Assembly: GCF_020740795.1 (NCBI RefSeq)
Contig: NC_067289.1
Location: 22,092,608 to 22,156,607, forward strand
Source: Apus apus
Taxonomy: Eukaryota; Chordata; Aves; Apodiformes; Apodidae
Length of the DNA stretch: 64,000 nucleotides
Reading direction: 5' to 3'
Positions 33,229 through 33,713 of the stretch are shown here, piece by piece (the first letter of the stretch is position 1; each line of letters starts with the position of its first letter). The notes below the pieces were generated by a model. It did no database searches and was not told the origin of the DNA. It saw nothing but the letters and a program-made list of their open reading frames with translations. The position numbers were made by a program, and so were the translations under genes.

Positions 33229-33713
33229 GTGGCGGTGGGGAGGCCCGGGTGGAACTAACCCTAATGGCGGCCGCCGTGCTCCCCGGGCCCGCCCGCTGTT
33301 TTACTCGCTGACTTTCAGCGGACGCGGGGAGCAGCCCGGGGCTGGGGGAGGGAGGGAGGGAAGGGGGCGGCAGCGCCTGTGGGGGGGGACAAGGGTCCGC
33401 CAGAAAAAAAACGTCAGCGAGGGGGCTCCTCACCCGCCCCGCCCTGGGGTCCCCGCGTCCCTCCACAGCCGGGGGCCCGCCGCGGAGGCTCCCGCCGCCG
33501 CCTTTTCCCCCCTCGTCCCCGGGAGGCCGCGGTCGGCCGGCGCCCGCCACTGCCGCCGCGAAGAGCTCGCCTCTGTCAGCCTGTGGGGGCCGGGAGGAGC
33601 GGGGGGGCGCCCCGCGCCGGGGGGGCCCCAGCAGAGCAACGGGAGCGGCGCCGCCGGGACCAACCGCGCCTCCCTCAGCCGTGGGGCGCGCGGCCGGCGC
33701 CGCCCCGACACGC
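33229..33713 (+). ncRNA. TERC: TERC, telomerase RNA component
   Basis: Vertebrate telomerase RNA, about 485 nt, the template and scaffold of telomerase. In order: a G-rich 5' leader; the template CTAACCCTAA at 33255-33264; the CR2 side of the pseudoknot at 33295-33321 (GCTGTTTTACTCGCTGAC then TTTCAGCGG); the CR3 strand with an A8 run and GTCAGCG at 33404-33419; the CR4/CR5 TERT-binding domain at about 33518-33592 (GAGGCCGCGGTCGGCC ... CCGCGAAGAGCTCGCCTCTG); box H AGAGCA (ANANNA) at 33633-33638; the CR7 hairpin at 33672-33686; and box ACA at 33708-33710, three bases before the inferred 3' end. The order and the pseudoknot bases agree with human TERC. The 5' end is inferred from the TATA-like spacing and could be off by several bases. 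The RNA is larger than the human RNA (451 nt), partly through a G-rich expansion between CR2 and CR3. Confidence 0.94.

Follow-up and report, generated by a model that had tools for sequence, protein, structure and literature searches.

An almost certainly intact telomerase RNA gene beside MYNN in Apus apus, with altered bases at positions studied in the human RNA

The window, as the whole stretch of 64,000 nucleotides analysed here is called, lies at 22.09–22.16 Mb of contig C9 of Apus apus. Near its middle, on the plus strand and in GC- and CpG-rich surroundings, a template, the P2b/P3 pseudoknot, CR4/5, an H box and an ACA box are all present, in the order that the earlier note had described (Table 1). 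To the left, on the minus strand, a BTB exon lies in the frame 29791–30324, and zinc-finger frames extend as far as about 24.1 kb. Compared with the PDB, the BTB frame matches myoneurin best (MYNN; 2vpk, 7.3e-48), which agrees with the claim that MYNN lies on this side, and MYNN is transcribed away from the telomerase RNA gene. Leucine-rich-repeat frames occur at 2.3–3.4 kb (strong), 1.1–1.5 kb (below the cut-off) and 7.1 kb (one repeat); judged by position, these would be LRRIQ4 and LRRC34. An actin-like frame corresponding to ACTRT3 was sought between MYNN and the gene and none was seen in the 19 of 78 listed frames that were scanned, although a fragment could be missed in this way. Seven short actin words gave no match in the six frames of the window, which is a weak test.

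To the right of the gene, the peptide MRSKGRARKLA is encoded at 55605 (+). This peptide presumably belongs to the first exon of MECOM/MDS1, and the sequence makes a MECOM first exon at this place probable. The candidate exon is held by a GC-rich stretch at 53000–58000. Further to the right is a pyrimidine repeat (58836–59032), of which 58869–59032 consists of 33 copies of TTTTC with 97% matches.

Table 1. Coordinates of the telomerase RNA gene, its elements and nearby features, in positions of the window
Feature	Position	Strand	Basis and remarks
tRNA-Val gene (anticodon AAC)	31056–31130	-	Lies between MYNN and TERC
CCAAT box (putative)	33168–33172	+	Motif position; starts 57 nt before 33225
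TATA-like TTTAA	33202–33206	+	Motif position; starts 23 nt before 33225
Telomerase RNA gene (TERC)	33225–33713	+	RF00024 match; ends predicted by model and chicken TR primers; RNA length about 489 nt
P1, 5' strand	33231–33246	+	Pairs with 33423–33438; 15/15 chosen pairs standard
Template CUAACCCUAAU	33255–33265	+	Sequence; encodes TTAGGG
P2a	33277–33285/33325–33333	+	9/9 chosen pairs standard; present in free fold of 33270–33345
P2b	33290–33298/33316–33324 (or 33293–33298/33316–33321)	+	8/8 chosen pairs standard
U-rich loop 1, UUUUA	33299–33303 (or 33299–33302)	+	Sequence
P3 pseudoknot stem	33304–33315/33409–33421	+	12/12 chosen pairs Watson-Crick; bulged C33412
P4 helix	33444–33454/33622–33631	+	10/10 chosen pairs standard, one bulged U; closes 5' hairpin of H/ACA domain
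CR4/5 three-way junction (P5 inner, P6a, P6b)	about 33515–33590	+	18/18 chosen pairs standard; Rfam alignment
P6.1 stem-loop, AGAG-CUCGC-CUCU	33562–33574	+	4/4 pairs; Rfam alignment
H box AGAGCA (ANANNA)	33633–33638	+	Motif
3' hairpin P7/P8	33640–33707	+	22/22 chosen pairs standard
CAB box position, UCAG	33675–33678	+	P8 loop sequence
ACA box	33708–33710	+	Motif; followed by CGC, 3 nt before the 3' end predicted by model and primer

The helices of the RNA can be written down with standard pairs throughout. This holds for 98 of 98 pairs, which were picked by eye and from the Rfam alignment, so that the count shows that the helices can form and is no independent test. Within the pseudoknot domain, P2b and P3 together account for 20 of 20 chosen pairs, with a U-rich loop and an A-rich 3' strand, and P3 was also recovered blind, as an inverted repeat. 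CR4/5 is built from P5, P6a, P6b and P6.1. Free-energy folding of pieces of the gene, which cannot form a pseudoknot and is not taken as proof, returned some of these helices. In the fold of 33225–33440, positions 33231–33242 paired with 33426–33438, partly slipped by one; P6a and P6b appeared in the fold of 33520–33585, and in that of 33640–33707 P7 was recovered with the register of P8 shifted by three. P2b was absent from the fold of 33270–33345, P4 from that of 33425–33635 and the P6.1 stem from the folds of gene pieces.

The ends of the gene were placed by the covariance model and by the end primers for chicken telomerase RNA (TR) that are printed in a passage of PMC2929889. The 5' primer aligns to 33225–33243, with a different first base and one gap, and the 3' primer to 33696–33713. 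Model and primer agree on a predicted 3' end at 33713, as the earlier note had it. The 5' end, which had been given as 33229, appears better placed 4 nt before this, near 33225. Both model and cloning primers position the ends by sequence, and the transcript ends are predicted ones. A second CCAAT box is found at 33136.

Long open reading frames run across the gene. Here, a protein-coding reading is unlikely, as three of the eight overlapping frames were scanned and gave no Pfam family. The human peptide hTERP has 121 residues. Its AUG lies in the pseudoknot domain, according to a passage of PMC7355840. The only ATG inside the Apus apus gene, at 33264, opens a frame of 15 codons whose stop ends at 33311, and nothing like hTERP can therefore start at an ATG here.

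Identification as telomerase RNA comes from a cmscan search of the whole 64-kb window against 4,227 Rfam families, among them the vertebrate telomerase RNA model that the earlier note had proposed as a check. Positions 33225–33713 (+) match this model, RF00024, with a score of 124.1 bits (E = 2e-29) where the gathering score is 70, and the match spans the complete model, from 1 to 443 of 443 positions. The claim of a complete telomerase RNA gene at 33229–33713 is borne out by this full-length match, with ends near those predicted. The fit is poor at about 33455–33514 and 33591–33621, which are variable stretches. Ten matches were obtained in the window at a permissive E ≤ 5, with no second telomerase match among them. 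Eight of the ten were set aside, each being below the gathering score of its family, which leaves RF00024 and one tRNA (31058–31130, -); the same two matches were returned when a 10-kb part of the window was searched at E ≤ 1. The alignment header for RF00024 lists a bias of 107.0 bits, and the GC content of the gene is 79%. By Infernal convention, as we understand it, the score of 124.1 bits stands after bias correction, and GC richness is therefore no explanation of the match. In addition, a motif grammar consisting of the template, both P3 strands and the H and ACA boxes, with loose spacing, fits the plus strand of the window once and fits none of 20,000 sequences drawn from a first-order Markov model with the composition of the gene, the grammar having been composed with the gene sequence already in view.

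The template can be compared with the telomere repeats of the same genome. Five exact TTAGGG units (a 30-mer) occur at 3,503 overlapping places (1,370 and 2,133 on the two strands), whereas the reversed control has one match, and contig C23 starts within a TTAGGG array. The TTAGGG arrays of this genome and the template CUAACCCUAAU thus agree with each other. Among the places listed, a short array at C8:575863–575910 lies more than 575 kb into its contig and is perhaps interstitial.

Three sites differ from the human RNA. In the P6.1 loop, position 33566, which corresponds to human U306, is C, as is the position of human G308; U307 (33567) and G309 (33569) are kept, and so are the positions of A301, U314, G315 and U316 in CR4/5. 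The place of the human U177 bulge in P3, 33412, is also C. In the CAB box, UCAG stands in place of UGAG, so that the AG is kept and the G before it is replaced by C. In the Rfam match line, the change at U177 has a positive mark and those at U306 and in the CAB box are blank. We take a blank in the Infernal match line to denote no positive score at these two places.

Passages of PMC4705647 count U306 among the residues that are highly conserved in vertebrates. In human it is a reported pseudouridine; that study could not assign it, and a large-scale search confirmed U307 and not U306. The passages also report that a G308A mutant lost neither TERT binding nor activity. In the human structure, U307 together with U177 reaches into the TERT thumb (passage of PMC8648750). 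For the acorn worm telomerase RNA, part of PMC8480181 describes two conserved residues of the P6.1 loop at each of which replacement of U by C abolished activity, and one of which, we infer, corresponds to U306. A passage of PMC2929889 prints an oligonucleotide, labelled outside that passage, that was used for constructs of the RNA of Marek's disease virus; where human has U306, it carries the usual U. The consensus of the CAB box is given as ugAG for human in an excerpt of PMC10811338, and excerpts of this paper and of PMC8480181 place the box in the P8 loop of most vertebrates, not of teleosts.

The three substitutions could be fixed changes of the lineage, polymorphism or assembly errors. 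We consider it rather unlikely, though worth stating, that the telomerase RNA of Apus apus works with C306 and a UCAG CAB box. In that case the contact with TERT and the delivery to Cajal bodies would have changed in this lineage, perhaps together with corresponding changes in TERT or TCAB1.

The three substitutions just described might be read as signs of a decayed or retrotransposed TERC pseudogene, with the working gene elsewhere or missing from the assembly, and part of PMC8537989 describes TERC pseudogenes and TERC-derived insertions in vertebrates. This reading is very improbable, however. A single search of the 1.10-Gb assembly (110 contigs) with the gene returned one match, the gene itself, at 100% over 489 nt, in a search that short fragments could escape. 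The gene also adjoins MYNN and has promoter-like boxes, and all helices of the family can be drawn in it with standard pairs; in a decaying copy, preservation of P3, P7 and the two ends would presumably not be expected. A match produced by chance or by base composition within a GC-rich CpG island, as its 79% GC and the listed bias might suggest, has a negligible probability, being refuted by the E value of RF00024 and opposed by the lack of any other telomerase match in 64 kb at E ≤ 5 despite other GC-rich stretches, and by the ordered motifs, which none of the 20,000 random sequences reproduced. Instead, 33225–33713 is almost certainly an intact telomerase RNA gene (TERC), most likely that of a bird. 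The interpretation as TERC draws on the neighbourhood, the single genome match, the promoter-like boxes at fitting distances and the agreement with the chicken TR end primers.

As a TERC orthologue, the gene is ordinary in kind and is one more bird telomerase RNA. It shares with vertebrate and chicken TR the template, P1, P2a/P2b, P3, CR4/5 with P6.1, the H box, P7/P8 and the ACA box, in the same order and on the same strand, and its two ends align with the end primers of chicken TR. The RNA is longer than that of human, which has 451 nt according to a passage of PMC7355840, and relative to the RF00024 model it has a short P6b loop and GC-rich insertions. In human, as stated in part of PMC8533930, APRM (ACTRT3), LRRC31, LRRC34 and MYNN lie beside TERC, while mouse Terc lies further away. 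The Apus apus locus resembles the human one in that the gene is beside MYNN with leucine-rich-repeat genes beyond, and differs from it in the tRNA-Val gene, with no ACTRT3-like frame in the frames scanned, between MYNN and the gene. The vTR of Marek's disease virus is also a telomerase RNA, with 88% identity to that of chicken (passage of PMC5537665). It is viral, whereas the Apus apus gene is chromosomal with conserved neighbours.

Consistent with the family, RNA polymerase II would start at the CCAAT/TATA-like promoter and the transcript would be trimmed to 3 nt past the ACA box. Dyskerin, NOP10, NHP2 and GAR1 would protect the RNA. The pseudoknot and CR4/5 would bind TERT, and CUAACCCUAAU would serve as the template for the TTAGGG repeats added to the ends of chromosomes.

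Bird assemblies had been said often to lack this RNA, and a 2015 survey gives such a picture, with telomerase RNA in 6 of 48 bird genomes (PMC4378963). In that survey, missing data are named as the most likely explanation of seven patchy families, and a presumably divergent telomerase RNA is mentioned elsewhere. The TERC genes of chicken, barn swallow and hyacinth macaw have already been used, as a passage of PMC8537989 states, so that the RNA was known from birds before. In Apus apus, whose assembly is contiguous, the standard model easily finds a complete gene although the stretch has 79% GC; for this species, missing data are therefore favoured over divergence beyond detection. The locus supplies exact coordinates for annotation and for telomere work, and it flags three bases at which nature may have substituted positions studied in human telomerase.
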